A stretch of 64,000 nucleotides of DNA from Candidatus Limosilactobacillus merdigallinarum (GTDB lineage Bacteria > Bacillota > Bacilli > Lactobacillales > Lactobacillaceae): positions 1 to 64,000 of the forward strand of contig DXFH01000022.1 of NCBI GenBank assembly GCA_019114515.1, given 5' to 3'. Of this stretch, positions 20,881 through 26,767 are shown one piece after another. The notes under the pieces are model-generated. The model was not told where the DNA came from, made no database searches, and worked only from the letters and a program-made list of their open reading frames with translations. The stretch's first letter is position 1. Every line of letters starts with the position of its first letter. The position numbers and the translations under genes were made by a program.

Positions 20881-20961
20881 CATCCAAAGTAGCACGCTCC
20901 CTAGTAGTTGTCTTTTAAACATTGATATATTAGTGAAAAATTAATTGCTATGACGACAAAA

Positions 20962-20996
20962 GCCTCTAGCCGCTGGTAGATCCAGTCGCTAGAGGC
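20962..20996. terminator. Terminator between rnhC and iunH
   Basis: GCCTCTAGC and GCTAGAGGC form a perfect 9-base stem with a 17-base loop. It is preceded by AAAA and followed by CTATTT, so it is weak on the T side. It separates two convergent genes in a 162-base gap that holds nothing else. Confidence 0.75.
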
Positions 20997-21042
20997 CTAT
21001 TTCGTTTACAGAAAAAGTAGTTGTGATCTTTTTAATTAATTA

Positions 21043-21990
21043 TTATTTGGAAAAGCTTTTTAAAGACTTCATGATGAGGTCAATGAACTTTTGGCGATCA
21101 ATGTCTAATAGGACAGTGGTATTTTGTGGCTTGTCAGTTTGCCGGTAGTAGTCGCAAACTGTTTCCCCACGGGTTAACTCACCTTCCGTTTCCACGTCGA
21201 CATTCATCTTGACGGATTTAAACATGTCCGGATCAATCAACCAAGCTATGGTACAAGGGTCATGCAAAGGTGCACCCTTGAATCCCCAGCGTGGATCTTC
21301 TTCATCGTGATAAATCTCGAAGAAGTTTAACAGGCCATGAAATGCTTGCCCCACTGGATTATCGATCTCTTTAAGTGAATCAATTTCATCTTTCATGATC
21401 TGGGCCTTATGAGTTACGTTTAAGCCAGCCATAACAGTTGGGATACCAAAGTTTAGGACAATCTTAGCGGCCTCAGGGTCTACGTAGATATTAAATTCTA
21501 CAGAAGGAACCCAGTTACCGAAGCCCCAGGCACCACCCATGAAGACGATCTGATCAATCTTTTCCTTGGCCAATTCTGGGTAAACTCGCAGGAATAAGGC
21601 AGCATTAGTCATTGGTCCGGTAACAACTAGCGTTACCTTCTCGTCACTTTCTTGCAAAGTCTTTGCGATCAAATCAATGGCCGGCATATCCTGCACCTTA
21701 AAATCAGGATCAGGCAAATCAGCACCGTCCAGACCGGTTTTACCGTGAACATTACCCGCGGTTTCCAATGGCTTAACTAACGGTGTTCGGTTACCAGCAG
21801 CGACCGGAATATCTTCCCGGTGGAACAAAGTCAACATCCGCATGGCGTTATTCAAAGTCTTATCAGGTGTTTGATTGCCGGCGGAAGTAGTTACCGCTAG
21901 CAATTCAATCTTTGGCGATGCTACCGCAAGGGTCATTGCTAAAGCGTCATCATGACCTGGGTCACAGTCTAAAATAATTTTCTTAGCCAT
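21043..21990 (-). CDS. Inosine-uridine preferring nucleoside hydrolase
   Basis: A 315-residue hydrolase that splits ribonucleosides to base and free ribose. The calcium-binding N-terminal motif ILDCDPGHDDALA is intact, as are VTGPMTNAA, FMGGAWGFGNW and the C-terminal Asp in LHDPCTIAW. It could be pyrimidine-preferring, but specificity is not decided by these motifs. It is the last gene of the five-gene operon starting with the sugar kinase at 25466, 42 bases after the dehydrogenase gene, and would supply the pentose for that pathway. Confidence 0.93.
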   Translation of the reverse strand: MAKKIILDCDPGHDDALAMTLAVASPKIELLAVTTSAGNQTPDKTLNNAMRMLTLFHREDIPVAAGNRTPLVKPLETAGNVHGKTGLDGADLPDPDFKVQDMPAIDLIAKTLQESDEKVTLVVTGPMTNAALFLRVYPELAKEKIDQIVFMGGAWGFGNWVPSVEFNIYVDPEAAKIVLNFGIPTVMAGLNVTHKAQIMKDEIDSLKEIDNPVGQAFHGLLNFFEIYHDEEDPRWGFKGAPLHDPCTIAWLIDPDMFKSVKMNVDVETEGELTRGETVCDYYRQTDKPQNTTVLLDIDRQKFIDLIMKSLKSFSK

Positions 21991-22032
21991 CTTGTCTCGT
22001 CCTTTCCGCCGTTAAAGCAATAAGCTTAACTA

Positions 22033-23196
22033 TTAACCAAAGTGCTTCAACAATTCAGTAACATTTTCTTTAGTTAACTTAACGGGAGTGTTGCCCGCAA
22101 AACGTTCATGGAGCACTTCATCTACATTAGTTACTAACTCATCGTTAGAAACGCCATAGTCAGCAAATGGGTGTAAACCGACCATGTCATCACGGAAATG
22201 CTTGTAAGCCTTGACAGTAATGTCAGCAATTTCTTCAGGGGTTTCATTACCCTCAAAATGGGCATCTAAGATCTTCCCGATTTCCTTAACCTTCTTGGGT
22301 TCAACTGGGGCAACCAGCTTCAGAACGGCTGGCAGTGCATAGGCAACTGCTTCACCGTGAACAAAGTGGTACTTAGTTCCTAAAACATGAGCTTCGGAGT
22401 GAGCTACGATCGTCCCAGACTGGTTAAGCATCCAGCCGGCCAGGTCAGCAGCTACCAATACCCGTTGCCGTAATCCCAGATTAGAGCCATCAGCAACTGC
22501 TCCTGGCAGGTAGTTGTACTGTAAGAACATAATCTTTTCACAAATAGCGTCGCAAACTGGGCTGCTCAAATTTGACAAGTAACCTTCTGCCGCGTGAGAA
22601 AATGCATCCAAGCCACTGGCAATGGTCTGCTTCTTTGGCAGACTAACCGTTAATTCAGGAATTAACAAAGCGTAGTCACTCAGCATCTTATCAGACAAGA
22701 TGGCGTTCTTTTCGTGCGTCTGCGTATCCGTAACGACCAGTGCGTTGGACATTTCACTACCAGTACCAGCAGTGGTAGGCACGCTAATCAATGGCTTCAA
22801 ATCATGAATGGCGCTTTCGTCTTTAACGTAGTCTTCAATTTTACCGCCGTCACTGGCCACGATGTTAATCCCCTTAGCACCATCTAATGATGAACCACCA
22901 CCAATGGCAATTACGGAATCGGCACCAAAGTCTTTCATTTCAGTTGCACCGCTGTTAATTACACTGGCCGGTGGATCGGGCACAATCCCCGCGTAAACTT
23001 GGTATTCAATCGATTGGTCCTTCATTGCCTGCAGCATGTCCTTAACTGCCGGAACGTCCAGTAAGAACTTATCTAAAACGACAAATGGCCGCTTAGCACC
23101 TTCCATCTGCAGTAATTTAACGATTGATGATGCTAAATCATGCTCCACGACAACTTTAACTGGTTGTTGCATCCTAATTTTCATCTGTAATTTCAC
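22033..23196 (-). CDS. Iron-containing (group III) alcohol dehydrogenase
   Basis: A 387-residue NAD(P)-linked dehydrogenase of the Fe-ADH family. Cofactor motifs are IAIGGGSSLDGAKG and VPTTAGTGSE; the metal ligands are Asp and His in SGLDAFSHAAEG plus the His residues in SEAHVLGTKYHFVHGEA. The substrate is unknown; family members reduce aldehydes and ketones such as lactaldehyde or dihydroxyacetone. The GTG start at 23196 overlaps the stop of the YczE-type gene in GTGA; an ATG four codons later is possible. It sits in the kinase/TrpF-like operon, so a carbonyl from sugar breakdown is a reasonable guess. Confidence 0.92.
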   Translation of the reverse strand: MKLQMKIRMQQPVKVVVEHDLASSIVKLLQMEGAKRPFVVLDKFLLDVPAVKDMLQAMKDQSIEYQVYAGIVPDPPASVINSGATEMKDFGADSVIAIGGGSSLDGAKGINIVASDGGKIEDYVKDESAIHDLKPLISVPTTAGTGSEMSNALVVTDTQTHEKNAILSDKMLSDYALLIPELTVSLPKKQTIASGLDAFSHAAEGYLSNLSSPVCDAICEKIMFLQYNYLPGAVADGSNLGLRQRVLVAADLAGWMLNQSGTIVAHSEAHVLGTKYHFVHGEAVAYALPAVLKLVAPVEPKKVKEIGKILDAHFEGNETPEEIADITVKAYKHFRDDMVGLHPFADYGVSNDELVTNVDEVLHERFAGNTPVKLTKENVTELLKHFG

Positions 23197-23825
23197 GCTT
23201 CCTTAATATTGAATAACCGTTGAAACTTCTCACTCAAATATTGAATTGCTGGTCCCGTCGTACATACCGCCACAATCGTGATAATGCCAAATTTACCACC
23301 AAGCGCAATCCCGATCATGATTAATACGACGTCAAAAGTAATCTTGGTACGTCTGACACTCCAATGAGTATGATCCCTAATCGTCAGCATGAAGCCGCTA
23401 AATGGGTCCACCCCAATGTCTGCACAAATAAACAGACTAATTCCCAGATAGTAGAGGCTAATGCCAATCACGCCGCCTAAGATGCGCTGCCACATCGTAT
23501 TAGCAGGAAACAAGGCGACATAAAGATGTGACCCTAACAGCACGAAAAAGCCATATGGTATCAGGTACATCAAAGAACCAATATTGGCATAGTGACGACC
23601 AACGATGAACAGCAAGATTAACAAGCCGATGTTAATAAAATTCGACACCATTCCTAAGTTAATTCTCGGAACATTAAAAGTAGCTCGAATCCCATCATAA
23701 ATAATGCCGACAGGGTCGTTCCCTAAGTCCGTATTATTGTTAAAAGCAACTCCAACACAAACCAGAAAGATACCAACCATCGCTAGCGTTATCCGCTTGA
23801 GAGTGAATCGGCTGCTCGTTTGCAT
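23193..23825 (-). CDS. YczE/YyaS/YitT-type integral membrane protein
   Basis: A 210-residue protein with about five membrane helices (12-32, 55-75, 82-105, 115-140 and 165-190). Two internal repeats are visible, NTDLGNDPVGII and CADIGVDPFSGF, each preceding a helix, the feature of the YczE family. No biochemical function is established for the family. Being fully embedded in the operon and coupled to the dehydrogenase gene, it may move the substrate or a product across the membrane; this is inference. Confidence 0.88.
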   Translation of the reverse strand: MQTSSRFTLKRITLAMVGIFLVCVGVAFNNNTDLGNDPVGIIYDGIRATFNVPRINLGMVSNFINIGLLILLFIVGRHYANIGSLMYLIPYGFFVLLGSHLYVALFPANTMWQRILGGVIGISLYYLGISLFICADIGVDPFSGFMLTIRDHTHWSVRRTKITFDVVLIMIGIALGGKFGIITIVAVCTTGPAIQYLSEKFQRLFNIKEA

Positions 23826-23827
23826 TA

Positions 23828-24520
23828 TTAAAGCCCCAGTTCTGCGGCTGCCTTATCTGCCGCTTCACAGAATGCCTTGACTTTTGGAATGTCTTTTTCA
23901 AGGTAGCCGTCGTCGTATTTGATACTGGTCTTAGTCAAGGAATCAACCCCGTAAGGACGGATTTCTTTAATGGCTTCGGCAACATTATCTGGGCCCATTC
24001 CGCCGGCTTCGATTACCTTAGCATTAACGTCCTTCACGATTTGGGCATCAATTGACCAGTCATGAGTCTGACCAGAAGCACCAATCCCCGTATCAGCAGC
24101 TAAGCCAGAGTCCAGCAGGATGTAGTCAACAAATGGGTCAACCTTCTTGGCACGATCAATTGCAGACTTGTTGTCAACCAATACTGCCTGCATCAATTCA
24201 GTATGTGGTGCTACTTCCTTCAGGCGCTTGGCAAATTCTTCATCAGCAGTGTATTCATCACCGGCAACGTGCAGAATTTCTGGTTGCAGACGCCGCGCTA
24301 AGTCGATCATTTCGTCTGGGTCGTTGGTGAGCATGATCAATACCATCTTTACGCCACGCTTCTTGCATTCTTCGTGAATCTTATCAACCCGGTACAATGG
24401 AACACGTTGACGTGGAACGCCACCCATTTGCATTGGTACCAAACCAATGTTATCGGCACCCGCTTCCATCGTCTTAATTGCTTCGTCAACTTGAATAATT
24501 GAGTAAAGTTGCTTAATCAT
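23828..24520 (-). CDS. TrpF-like (phosphoribosylanthranilate isomerase family) barrel protein of unknown reaction
   Basis: A 230-residue TIM-barrel protein whose C-terminal half is clearly TrpF-like: YILLDSGLA (general-acid Asp 137 kept), GASGQTHDWS (147-156), EAGGMGPDNV and PYGVDSLTKTS. However the N-terminal strand KQLYSIIQ takes the place of KICGIT, so the catalytic Cys is absent; the only cysteines are near 52 and 217. The phosphate-loop SSG is replaced by LTKTS. No other tryptophan gene is nearby. A different isomerase, epimerase or aldolase reaction on a sugar phosphate is likely. GGAGG precedes the ATG; the gene follows the kinase by 19 bases. Confidence 0.82.
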   Translation of the reverse strand: MIKQLYSIIQVDEAIKTMEAGADNIGLVPMQMGGVPRQRVPLYRVDKIHEECKKRGVKMVLIMLTNDPDEMIDLARRLQPEILHVAGDEYTADEEFAKRLKEVAPHTELMQAVLVDNKSAIDRAKKVDPFVDYILLDSGLAADTGIGASGQTHDWSIDAQIVKDVNAKVIEAGGMGPDNVAEAIKEIRPYGVDSLTKTSIKYDDGYLEKDIPKVKAFCEAADKAAAELGL

Positions 24521-24539
24521 CTGAAATTCCTCCTTGATG

Positions 24540-25466
24540 TTACTTTGCCTGTGCTAATTTGTCTGCGATCATCTGTGGGTTCAATTCTGGCACTGACTTA
24601 TCGCTTTCCAAAGCAATGGAAGCAGCTGCCTGTGTCTTTTCACAAATAGTTTTCAGATCAGTGATTCCTTCATAACGGCACCAGGTGATCGTCGCCGTAC
24701 TGCAGTCGCCCGCACCATTGGCATTGACAATTTTCGTGGTCATTGTCGGCACCTTAACGACACCATCTTTATTGGCTGCCAAAATACCATCAGCACCTAA
24801 TGAAATAAAGACGGTCTTAACACCCATGTCAATCAGCTTCTCAGCTGCCTTTTGGACATCGTCATTGTTCTCAATCTTGACGCCAGACAATAATTCAGCT
24901 TCCATCTTATTCGGCTTGAAAGTGTCCAGTTTGTTCAAAATTGGCTTAATCCGCTCACCCTTGTTAACTGATACAGGGTCAGCAAACAATGGCACCGTCA
25001 CGTGATCGCCCAACCACTTAATTGATTCAGATGGTAAATTGGCATCCACCATGACGATTTCGGCGTTATTCATGAAGTCCAAACGCTTAGCCAAGAACGC
25101 TGGCGTAATGTTTTCCGTAATCTTCATGTCATTGATGCCGACGAGCATATCACCAGTTTCATCAGTTACATAAAGGTAACCAGACGAACGTTGACCCTTC
25201 AGCTTTTCAGCGTAATCCAGGTGGATATGATTTTCGGCACAAGACTGTTCCATAACGGTTCCATTCATGTCATCGCCATAAACAGTGATCAAGTATGTTG
25301 ATACTTCAAGATGTGCCAGGTTCTGTGCGATGTTTTGACCAACACCACCGACAGCAGTACCAATTTCCCCAATGTTTGAGTCCCGTGGAATAATCTTCTT
25401 ATTAGGCATCCCAAAGATGTCCATGTTCATGCCACCGACAACTACTACATACGGCTTCTTATCCAA
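24540..25466 (-). CDS. PfkB family sugar/nucleoside kinase
   Basis: A 308-residue ribokinase-like kinase. The N-terminal sugar-binding signature is GGVGQNIAQNL (40-50), the ATP-side motifs are FADPVS (161), SLGADGIL (222) and the catalytic ANGAGD (Asp 254). The substrate may be a pentose or a nucleoside; there is no feature that settles it. The start is TTG at 25466 with an AGGGTGAG site upstream. It is first in the operon, behind a sigma-A promoter with an overlapping cre site. Its closest relative in the window is the degenerate domain of the regulator upstream, which aligns over the whole length. Confidence 0.93.
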   Translation of the reverse strand: MDKKPYVVVVGGMNMDIFGMPNKKIIPRDSNIGEIGTAVGGVGQNIAQNLAHLEVSTYLITVYGDDMNGTVMEQSCAENHIHLDYAEKLKGQRSSGYLYVTDETGDMLVGINDMKITENITPAFLAKRLDFMNNAEIVMVDANLPSESIKWLGDHVTVPLFADPVSVNKGERIKPILNKLDTFKPNKMEAELLSGVKIENNDDVQKAAEKLIDMGVKTVFISLGADGILAANKDGVVKVPTMTTKIVNANGAGDCSTATITWCRYEGITDLKTICEKTQAAASIALESDKSVPELNPQMIADKLAQAK

Positions 25467-25530: not shown

Positions 25531-25559
25531 AACATATCATGCACTGCAAGCGCTGTCAA
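25531..25559 (-). promoter_or_regulatory. Promoter of the kinase/TrpF-like/dehydrogenase operon
   Basis: Minus-strand TTGACA (25554-25559) and TATGTT (25531-25536) are 17 bases apart, about 65 bases ahead of the kinase TTG start. The -35 and spacer overlap the cre site. Confidence 0.75.
25545..25558 (-). promoter_or_regulatory. cre site (CcpA operator)
   Basis: Minus-strand TGACAGCGCTTGCA matches the cre consensus TGWAARCGYTTWCA at 12 of 14 positions, with the central GCGC intact. It overlaps the -35 and spacer of the operon promoter, the position for CcpA repression when preferred sugars are present. The ccpA gene lies in this window. Confidence 0.72.
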
Positions 25560-25653: not shown

Positions 25654-25684
25654 CACAAAAAAATCTCGGCATTTACCGAGATTT
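25654..25684 (-). terminator. Terminator after the HTH-pseudokinase gene
   Basis: Minus-strand AAATCTCGG and CCGAGATTTTTTT form a perfect stem with a 6-base loop just after the stop codon. The regulator is therefore transcribed separately from the operon it precedes. Confidence 0.9.
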
Positions 25685-25693
25685 CACAAATAT

Positions 25694-26767
25694 TTATTTT
25701 GCCAGTTCGGCGTTCACTTGGTCACTAACACTGGCGCTGGTTGCCATTGTACGTTCACCGGCTAATATCATATGGTCTAATGTCGCTTGCCAGGTCATAT
25801 GCTGCAGGTAGCAATTAGCAGTCATTGCCACCATCGCTGCGCCAACCCCATTTGTATTCATTACCCGCAAGTGGTTGTTATATGGACGGCTATCTTGATT
25901 TTGTCCGTCATCATAGAAGAGTCCCAGACGGTCAACATAAAGATATATCGCCGTTTTAAACATCTGGTGTAGTTGGTTAGCACAATGCTGTGCGGCTGCG
26001 ATATCTTTAATATCCACGCCCGACAACAAACTGCCTTCGACACCGTTAATCACCAAACCGGTTAAGTTAACATTATCCTGCACTAGATTAGGCGCCTTAT
26101 TAACCGATACGGATTTAGCAAATAGTGGTACTTTCACGTGATCATATAACCAGCGGATACTTGCGCTCGGGATGTTAGAATCAAAAATCACCAACTGGCT
26201 TTTATTAATATTGACTAATTCACTTTGCAAAAAAGCTGGCGATAGACGATTATTAATGTCCATATCGTCAACCCCAATCAGGCGCTGACCGTCATGACGG
26301 TTGATATATAAATAAATAGAAGTTGGCTTATCTAGCAACTGTTTGGCGTAGAACAAGTTAATATTGCGTCGCAGGGCATCTTCTTTAAATGTCTGCCCAT
26401 TCTGGTCATTACCATAGACTGTAATCAGGTTAGTGTTCACTCCTAGCTGAGCTAAGTTAGCAGCAATATTACGTCCTACTCCCCCTAACTGTGTCACAAT
26501 ATGACCGGCATTCGATCCTTTTGGTACCAGGTTGTCCTTTTTTAAAATGCCATAAACATCCATATTAGTAGCGCCGATGACCGTAACGTATTTTTCGGCC
26601 GGCAACACATAACCCTTACCACTAATCAAACCAGCTTTGATCAAGCGCGAAATGTGCGATGCTACGCCTGGCCGTGTAATGCCAAGCCGTTGTGCTAATT
26701 CTTTTTGGGTAATGAGTGGATTTTCCTGAATTAATTTTAAGATTTGGGATTCACGTTCTGTTGGCAT
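25694..26767 (-). CDS. Transcription regulator: winged HTH fused to an inactive PfkB kinase domain
   Basis: A 357-residue protein. Residues 1-55 form a winged helix (ESQILKLIQENPL, QKELAQRLGITRPGVASHIS). Residues 58-357 align end to end with the kinase at 24540. The sugar-side signature is kept (LGGVGRNIAANLAQLG), but the catalytic GAGD is GVGA (Ala 310), the SLGADG motif is YVDRLG, and FADP is FAKS. So ATP binding and catalysis should be lost while ligand binding may remain, making a sugar or nucleoside sensor. The ATG at 26767 has TAGGAGG 7 bases upstream; longer frames run antisense into rdgB. HTH-PfkB fusions are known, but usually with an intact kinase. Confidence 0.85.
   Translation of the reverse strand: MPTERESQILKLIQENPLITQKELAQRLGITRPGVASHISRLIKAGLISGKGYVLPAEKYVTVIGATNMDVYGILKKDNLVPKGSNAGHIVTQLGGVGRNIAANLAQLGVNTNLITVYGNDQNGQTFKEDALRRNINLFYAKQLLDKPTSIYLYINRHDGQRLIGVDDMDINNRLSPAFLQSELVNINKSQLVIFDSNIPSASIRWLYDHVKVPLFAKSVSVNKAPNLVQDNVNLTGLVINGVEGSLLSGVDIKDIAAAQHCANQLHQMFKTAIYLYVDRLGLFYDDGQNQDSRPYNNHLRVMNTNGVGAAMVAMTANCYLQHMTWQATLDHMILAGERTMATSASVSDQVNAELAK

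Follow-up and report, generated by a model that had tools for sequence, protein, structure and literature searches.

A window of 64,000 nucleotides from Candidatus Limosilactobacillus merdigallinarum (NCBI GenBank assembly GCA_019114515.1, contig DXFH01000022.1, positions 1 to 64,000 of the forward strand) contains a six-gene unit that is probably a carbon-catabolite-repressed operon for the utilization of pseudouridine (Psi). Five of the genes encode a PfkB-family kinase, a TrpF-like (β/α)8 barrel protein, a YczE-like membrane protein, an iron-type alcohol dehydrogenase (Fe-ADH), and a nucleoside hydrolase. The sixth, upstream of these and beyond a likely terminator, encodes a regulator composed of a winged helix-turn-helix (HTH) domain and a PfkB domain. 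The barrel protein would act on Psi 5'-phosphate (PsiMP), and we put the probability of this reading at about 0.72. The genome that holds the window is 1.56 Mb in size and close to Limosilactobacillus secaliphilus, with a barrel protein 99% identical to that of strain DSM 17896.

Pseudouridine is among the commonest modifications of RNA and has a C-glycosidic bond that withstands ordinary nucleosidases. The microbial route described for its use consists of PsuK and PsuG (PMC9247573). This pair (also called YeiC-YeiN) is found in Escherichia coli and many Bacillota. The unit in the window is like PsuK-PsuG in the full pseudouridine site of its kinase and in its nucleoside context. It differs in having a TrpF-like barrel and an Fe-ADH in place of PsuG, and in encoding the regulator and the kinase as separate genes, with a regulator that lacks the catalytic Asp.

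The operon kinase carries the active site of PsuK

The closest match of the operon kinase in the PDB is E. coli PsuK (7vkp; phmmer E value, 1.5e-54), and Pfam PfkB also matches. Contact positions of PsuK were taken from PMC9247573, where Ser30 is assigned to recognition of N1, Asn143 and Lys170 to the base, and Asp256 to catalysis. At 16 published contact and catalytic positions (Asn14, Asp16, Ser30, Gly41, Val42, Asn45, Tyr97, Met114, Asn143, Asp164, Val166, Ser167, Lys170, Asn187, Glu190, and Asp256), all 30 operon kinases, including that of the window, are identical to the E. coli enzyme; two of the 30 are one L. mucosae gene fetched twice. The base-contact sites are not kept in four PfkB kinases of other kinds that served as controls. 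Because the PsuK active site is fully conserved, there is a strong case that the operon kinase is a pseudouridine kinase.

Kinase, barrel, and Fe-ADH form a conserved core

A search of 301 Lactobacillaceae genomes with the barrel protein gave 33 matching genomes at an E value of 1e-3. Nineteen of these, the window's own included, encode orthologues of 64% identity or more. The remaining 14 gave weak matches only, and the 11 weak-match loci that were aligned all resemble canonical TrpF. Nine further orthologues, from three more families, came out of a profile search of 198 Lactobacillales genomes, giving 28 carrier genomes in four families. The kinase, barrel, and Fe-ADH genes are adjacent in all 28 (with YczE between barrel and Fe-ADH where it is present), and an HTH-PfkB regulator is close to this core in every one. 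Within the 301 Lactobacillaceae genomes, those with an HTH-less kinase (E value, <1e-140) are precisely the 19 that carry the barrel, and seven other genomes of that set have only an HTH-PfkB protein.

The first-pass annotation of the window, made from the sequence alone, had proposed an uncharacterized five-gene pathway and suggested a search for co-occurrence of the five families. The five are not strictly found together, and it is the kinase, barrel, and ADH, along with the regulator that had gone unnoted, that co-occur. YczE is present in 20 of the 28 carriers, a NupC-type concentrative nucleoside transporter (CNT) in 21, and any nucleoside hydrolase in 19; an orthologue of the window's hydrolase (at least 74% identity) is found in 14. 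These counts are lower bounds, as a few stretches stop at contig ends. The view of the locus as a single conserved, co-regulated, nucleoside-related catabolic unit is supported. The further suggestion that the pathway reoxidizes NADH for a heterofermenter does not serve as a general rationale, with PfkA (6-phosphofructokinase) encoded in 14 of the 28 carriers.

Two loci appear degraded. L125 (genome G238, a relative of G269) lacks kinase, barrel, and ADH genes within its stretch, retains a nucleoside hydrolase, and has a regulator gene with an in-frame stop, which looks like decay of the unit. A plasmid of Limosilactobacillus mucosae A1 (NZ_CP058956; L088) holds a decayed copy in which the barrel is without its N-terminal part and the ADH is annotated in two pieces.

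The barrel takes the place of PsuG

Close relatives of the operon kinase (E value, ≤1e-45) were found in 22 of 299 Bacillota genomes, the window's own not counted, and all 22 lie outside Lactobacillales. PsuG directly adjoins the kinase in 22 of 22 (two of these PsuG genes were confirmed by Pfam), and the base contacts are kept in every one. Neither the barrel nor an Fe-ADH lies within the 1.5-kb flanks of any of these kinases. PsuG (PF04227) was detected in none of the 301 Lactobacillaceae genomes, with controls such as E. coli matching.

In a phylogenetic tree, the operon kinases and the operon regulators are sister clades (support, 100/99) nested among PsuG-linked kinases. Bacillota PsuK proteins often combine HTH and PfkB domains in the manner of the operon regulator, and six such fusions were confirmed by Pfam. 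Because of this placement, we propose that a PsuK gene, often such a fusion in Bacillota, was duplicated. One copy would have lost the HTH domain and stayed a kinase; the other would have kept the HTH domain and lost catalysis, with the PsuG partner yielding to the barrel. The gene replacement makes PsiMP the likely substrate of the barrel protein. Further, Fe-ADH goes with the barrel (28 of 28) rather than with PsuG (0 of 22), and therefore the barrel reaction probably yields a carbonyl that is not formed by PsuG. That the Fe-ADH reduces a carbonyl produced by the barrel, as the first-pass annotation had it, is thus probable.

The barrel might instead be isofunctional with PsuG, converting PsiMP to uracil and ribose-5-phosphate, with the Fe-ADH contributing to the redox balance of pentose fermentation. 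It occupies the exact place that PsuG has in the relatives, and this reaction would yield uracil for salvage and a usable pentose phosphate. In addition, a Lachnospiraceae metagenome-assembled genome (L004) has the kinase-barrel pair with no ADH beside it; next comes a uridine kinase gene and, at a greater distance, one for a BMP-type nucleoside transporter. The kinase of L004 nests among Lactobacillales kinases in the tree, which suggests transfer. The constant company of Fe-ADH counts against equivalence to PsuG, as do the lysines of the barrel. PsuG uses Lys166 in its mechanism, as set out in PMC7722734. An alignment of 16 barrel sequences has only two invariant lysines, Lys125 and Lys209, and apart from these the barrels offer none of the kind that such a mechanism would suggest. 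We consider PsuG-like activity unlikely.

The barrel has a TrpF fold and lacks the catalytic cysteine

A structure model of the barrel (pLDDT, 92.5) has TrpF structures as its best PDB fold matches, with TM-scores of 0.75 to 0.79 by query length against 1dl3, 1nsj, and 1lbm. The Pfam PRAI match is over the gathering score, and the scores against the NCBI TrpF equivalogs are below their cut-offs (best, 81 bits versus 215; 12 models matched). The protein shares with TrpF the fold and the general-acid Asp (Asp126 in Thermotoga maritima numbering), retained as Asp137 and invariant in the 16-sequence alignment. It differs from TrpF at Cys7, the catalytic Cys that takes the C2' proton. All 14 of the kinase-linked barrels aligned have Tyr here (Tyr6), as do those of L052, L053, Ensifer, Mesorhizobium, and Halostella; the Corynebacterium and Streptomyces lavendulae barrels have Ala. 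Cys is found in the 11 weak-match lactobacillus TrpFs, in T. maritima TrpF, and in the Acaryochloris and Sphingobium proteins. The barrel further differs from TrpF in a longer β6-α6 loop, in the absence of a tryptophan context, and in His153, which replaces the Phe or Leu preceding the Asp-Trp motif. This His is not diagnostic, since the Cys-bearing Acaryochloris and Sphingobium proteins have it too.

The PRAI match would fit a tryptophan-pathway TrpF that lies beside the kinase by chance. We regard this as extremely improbable, given the replaced Cys, the scores below the TrpF cut-offs, and the fixed linkage to kinase and ADH. A strong canonical TrpF is lacking in 26 of the 28 carriers, which also tells against chance, but two genomes, G151 and G020, hold both kinds. 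A role in tryptophan biosynthesis was rejected on the basis of the barrel residues and the TrpF survey of the carriers.

Proposed pathway

In the proposed pathway, the PfkB kinase would convert Psi to PsiMP, a step for which active-site conservation is strong evidence, and the barrel protein, instead of PsuG, would take PsiMP. The retained Asp would donate a proton to the ring oxygen of the ribose as electrons are pushed from the uracil ring, so that the ribose ring opens as TrpF opens phosphoribosylanthranilate. With Tyr in place of the proton-abstracting Cys, the open intermediate would split between C2' and C3' in a retro-aldol reaction. The products would be D-glyceraldehyde-3-phosphate, which would enter glycolysis, and uracil-5-acetaldehyde. 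The Fe-ADH may then reduce the aldehyde to 5-(2-hydroxyethyl)uracil and regenerate NAD+. Both Fe-ADH domains (Pfam Fe-ADH and ADH_Fe_C) are present in the dehydrogenase, and the four putative metal ligands of the iron-ADH site, Asp-His-His-His, are retained in 30 of 30 orthologues.

The proposed logic resembles that of two other routes. In the one that combines deoxyribose-phosphate aldolase (DeoC) with an alcohol dehydrogenase, and in the 5-deoxyribose shunt, a pentose phosphate is cleaved to glyceraldehyde-3-phosphate or dihydroxyacetone phosphate and an aldehyde that is reduced by the ADH. The operon differs from these in the family of its barrel, in its predicted C-nucleotide substrate, and in that the cleavage is a proposal.

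The barrel could alternatively carry out a TrpF-like Amadori-type isomerization of PsiMP to 5-(1-deoxyribulos-1-yl)uracil 5'-phosphate. The Fe-ADH would reduce the ketone to a ribitol derivative that is dephosphorylated and excreted, serving as an electron sink or a means of disposal. This reaction is nearest to that known for TrpF, whose fold and general-acid Asp are retained, and in methanopterin biosynthesis the C-riboside β-RFA-P likewise ends as a ribitol. Two loci with distant barrels (L052 and L053, described below) add haloacid dehalogenase (HAD) phosphatase-like and major facilitator superfamily (MFS)-like proteins, fitting dephosphorylation and export. Against it, all of the kinase-linked barrels aligned have Tyr in place of the Cys with which TrpF removes the C2' proton, and a phosphatase is not conserved in the operon. 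Nor would any carbon or energy be returned for the ATP spent, which would be odd under a catabolite-responsive element (cre). We consider the isomerization unlikely, though slightly ahead of PsuG-like activity.

We favor the retro-aldol reaction because it makes sense of the ADH, of the missing Cys, and of the catabolite control; as a statement about chemistry alone, it is a tentative choice with less than an even chance of being correct. Slightly more tentative still is the full proposal that the barrel is a new kind of C-nucleotide aldolase, that the C-glycosidic bond stays intact and the base, still bearing a two-carbon tail, is released by way of the Fe-ADH, and that a dead kinase serves as the Psi sensor.

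Several observations weigh against a pseudouridine operon of this design. The kinase scores 205.7 bits against an NCBI PsuK cut-off of 540 (PRK09850), a narrow model that is nevertheless the best of the 29 families matched. Retro-aldol cleavage would waste the uracil ring. The 14.8-kb stretch of L004 contains neither ADH nor PsuG, and the ADH is thus not universal. Replacement of PsuG is not absolute: carrier G781, one of the nine outside Lactobacillaceae, has a PsuG elsewhere, which neighbors a nagB-like gene and has no adjoining kinase. The operon of the window genome has no NupC, and the only one elsewhere in that genome is 34% identical. Finally, some distant barrels accompany ribokinase-type kinases and nucleoside hydrolases (L052, L053, and L089) and others a pyridoxal phosphate (PLP) enzyme (L083 and L084), so that the family extends beyond C-ribosides.

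The regulator is probably a duplicated kinase that has lost catalysis

In the 29 regulators examined, Asn14, Asp16, Asn45, Met114, Asn143, and Lys170 are kept without exception and Ser30 is kept in 28. The catalytic Asp256 is Ala in 27, Ser in one, and Gly in one, and Asp164 is Lys in 28. Other positions drift: Val42 is variable, Tyr97 is Phe in seven, and Ser167 is not Ser in seven. Because the pocket is kept while the catalytic residues are lost, the regulator, a duplicated kinase by its place in the tree, probably senses pseudouridine, and it may in this way control the operon.

Seven further HTH-PfkB pseudokinases (L122 to L124 and L126 to L129; for example, L122:5633-6697) have Asp256 replaced by Ala and an altered pocket (Thr14 and Ser114). 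In six of them, a gene of 433 to 444 amino acids (GH28-like by eye) and a transporter-like gene of 506 to 510 amino acids lie downstream; the seventh ends at a contig end. These pseudokinases are probably sensors repurposed for another ligand.

YczE and the hydrolase are accessory

The family assignments of the first-pass annotation hold in Pfam or NCBIfam for the kinase, the TrpF-like protein, the Fe-ADH, and the hydrolase. That of YczE is weak, falling short of the equivalog cut-off (73.2 bits versus 205) and with no Pfam family. A structure model of YczE (pLDDT, 83.4) gave no PDB fold match at an E value of 0.001. Its orthologues carry two similar motifs, LGNDPVG...YDG and IGVDPF.G...IRD, which suggests an internal duplication. 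The hydrolase passes the NCBI RihA equivalog (cut-off, 433 bits). Because they are present in only 20 and 19 of the 28 carriers, respectively, we treat YczE and the hydrolase as accessory. YczE, for which an essential step is not supported, is a probable transporter of substrate or product, a role that a NupC-type transporter may fill in other genomes; NupC identity was established for one member of the operon transporter group. The RihA-type hydrolase would cleave uridine and cytidine imported alongside Psi.

The first-pass annotation had placed the hydrolase at the entry to the pathway: it would free a pentose, the kinase would phosphorylate the sugar, the barrel would isomerize or cleave it, and the ADH would reduce the product. 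A C-glycoside is not a substrate for an N-nucleosidase, and the hydrolase orthologue is found in only half of the carriers. The kinase, unlike the ribokinase-type controls, carries the pseudouridine site, and its relatives outside Lactobacillales are paired with PsuG. For the operon, this scheme is very unlikely. A ribose version may exist in L052 and L053, where hydrolase, ribokinase-type kinase, barrel, and ADH are found together, and in Halostella (L089), which combines barrel, kinase, and hydrolase.

With no NupC in its operon, uptake by an operon-encoded NupC was ruled out for the window genome. The 34% identical transporter lies beside a second nucleoside-hydrolase-like gene (L121:3565-5773, contig C10 of genome G000) and is a possible uptake route in this organism.

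Organization and regulatory elements of the locus

The five open reading frames (ORFs) of the first-pass annotation lie where it had placed them, all on the minus strand and separated by small gaps or overlapping (Table 1). The mechanical ORF of the regulator extends to 27100; its start was set at 26767 because the HTH domain begins there.

Table 1. Coordinates of genes and candidate regulatory elements of the unit in the window
Feature	Position	Strand	Description
HTH-PfkB regulator	25694..26767	minus	Pfam HTH_24 and PfkB; pocket kept, catalytic Asp lost (Ala at Asp256, Lys at Asp164); sister clade of operon kinases
Stem-loop then T run after regulator gene (likely terminator)	25660..25685	minus	Fold z, -3.5
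Promoter-like TTGACA-17-TATGTT, TG before second hexamer	25531..25559	minus	10/12 matches; upstream of kinase
cre-like operator overlapping -35 box	25545..25558	plus-strand sequence TGCAAGCGCTGTCA	1 mismatch
PfkB-family pseudouridine kinase (predicted), PsuK type without HTH	24540..25466	minus	TTG start; PsuK match and 16/16 sites
TrpF-like (β/α)8 barrel	23828..24520	minus	19-nt gap to kinase; Pfam PRAI, 48.7 bits; TrpF fold
YczE-like membrane protein	23193..23825	minus	2-nt gap to barrel; NCBIfam YczE, 73.2 bits
Iron-type NAD-dependent alcohol dehydrogenase (Fe-ADH)	22033..23196	minus	GTG start; 4-nt overlap with YczE; Pfam Fe-ADH and ADH_Fe_C
RihA-type pyrimidine ribonucleoside hydrolase	21043..21990	minus	42-nt gap to Fe-ADH; NCBIfam RihA, 514.6 bits
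Stem-loop with T run at operon end (likely terminator)	20960..20998	minus	Fold z, -6.2

The single promoter with a cre site that had been noted upstream of the kinase was recovered. Promoter-like sites are not in excess across the whole region (8 observed versus a mean of 12.2 in shuffles), and a terminator consensus scan recovered neither of the two stem-loops. When the 350 bases upstream of the kinase gene were scanned for cre-like sites with at most one mismatch, 13 of 20 Lactobacillaceae loci had one, as did 1 of 9 loci belonging to other families of Lactobacillales. The 20 include two strains of a single species, and some of them are almost identical. Base shuffles predict about 0.026 such sites per region.

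Distant barrels occur in other riboside contexts

L052 and L053 come from genomes that also have the main operon. Here a distant barrel is encoded with an energy-coupling factor (ECF) transporter, a ribokinase-type kinase, a HAD protein, another Fe-ADH, an MFS-like protein, and a nucleoside hydrolase, perhaps a ribose version of the same logic. In this variant cluster (L052:2530-11652 and L053), the ECF S component is of the CD3073 type, the hydrolase is RihA-like, and a divergent gene encodes a LacI-PfkB fusion (by eye).

On plasmids, 35 records matched the barrel. Neighborhoods were taken for 12, two of them unannotated: Halostella was read by its ORF list, and Sinorhizobium medicae was used for the barrel alone. 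In the haloarchaeon Halostella, a distant barrel is found with a kinase-like ORF (by eye), a nucleoside hydrolase, an ADP-ribosylglycohydrolase, and a BMP protein. The barrels of Ensifer (L083) and Shinella (L084) accompany PfkB and a Cys/Met-type PLP enzyme. In Mesorhizobium and Aminobacter, the barrel lies beside genes annotated as β-RFAP synthase, PurH, and SAICAR synthase, resembling formycin-type clusters. Corynebacterium plasmids and a Streptomyces lavendulae plasmid combine it with PsuG, Upp, a tautomerase, and a nonribosomal peptide synthetase-type gene in minimycin/indigoidine-like clusters. Uninformative contexts include those of Acaryochloris and Sphingobium and the loci L092 and L093. 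Broader-phylum matches, namely G655 (L082; E value, 1e-25) and eight at about 1e-20 to 1e-22, lie outside this analysis.

The logic of the minimycin/indigoidine and formycin types of C-nucleoside cluster follows PMC8724604. These antibiotic clusters resemble the operon in joining TrpF-like genes, here distant ones, with genes of the PsuG or β-RFAP synthase type. They differ in being biosynthetic, and in the Corynebacterium and Streptomyces barrels Ala occupies the position of the operon-barrel Tyr. The minimycin/indigoidine-like clusters L087, L091, and L094 hold a TrpF-like gene that is absent from the main-text account in PMC8724604, where the terms anthranilate, isomerase, and TrpF do not occur. 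Across the family, the link to ribosides is general, and a link to C-ribosides is confined to the main operon and to the Mesorhizobium/Aminobacter and Corynebacterium/Streptomyces clusters.

Implications

The substrate and the first step of the proposed pathway have been described before. What would be new are the two steps that follow and the sensor. No paper linking a TrpF-like protein to pseudouridine was found in an open-licence full-text library, from which subscription journals are mostly absent. If the proposal is correct, lactic acid bacteria of food and the gut would use pseudouridine with a second enzyme of unrelated fold and an added reductase. They would do so under a pseudouridine-responsive regulator built from a dead kinase, and possibly with a new metabolite, 5-hydroxyethyluracil. 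Members of a widespread TrpF-like family, now labeled phosphoribosylanthranilate isomerase, would then have another function, and their present label would mislead the annotation of tryptophan pathways.

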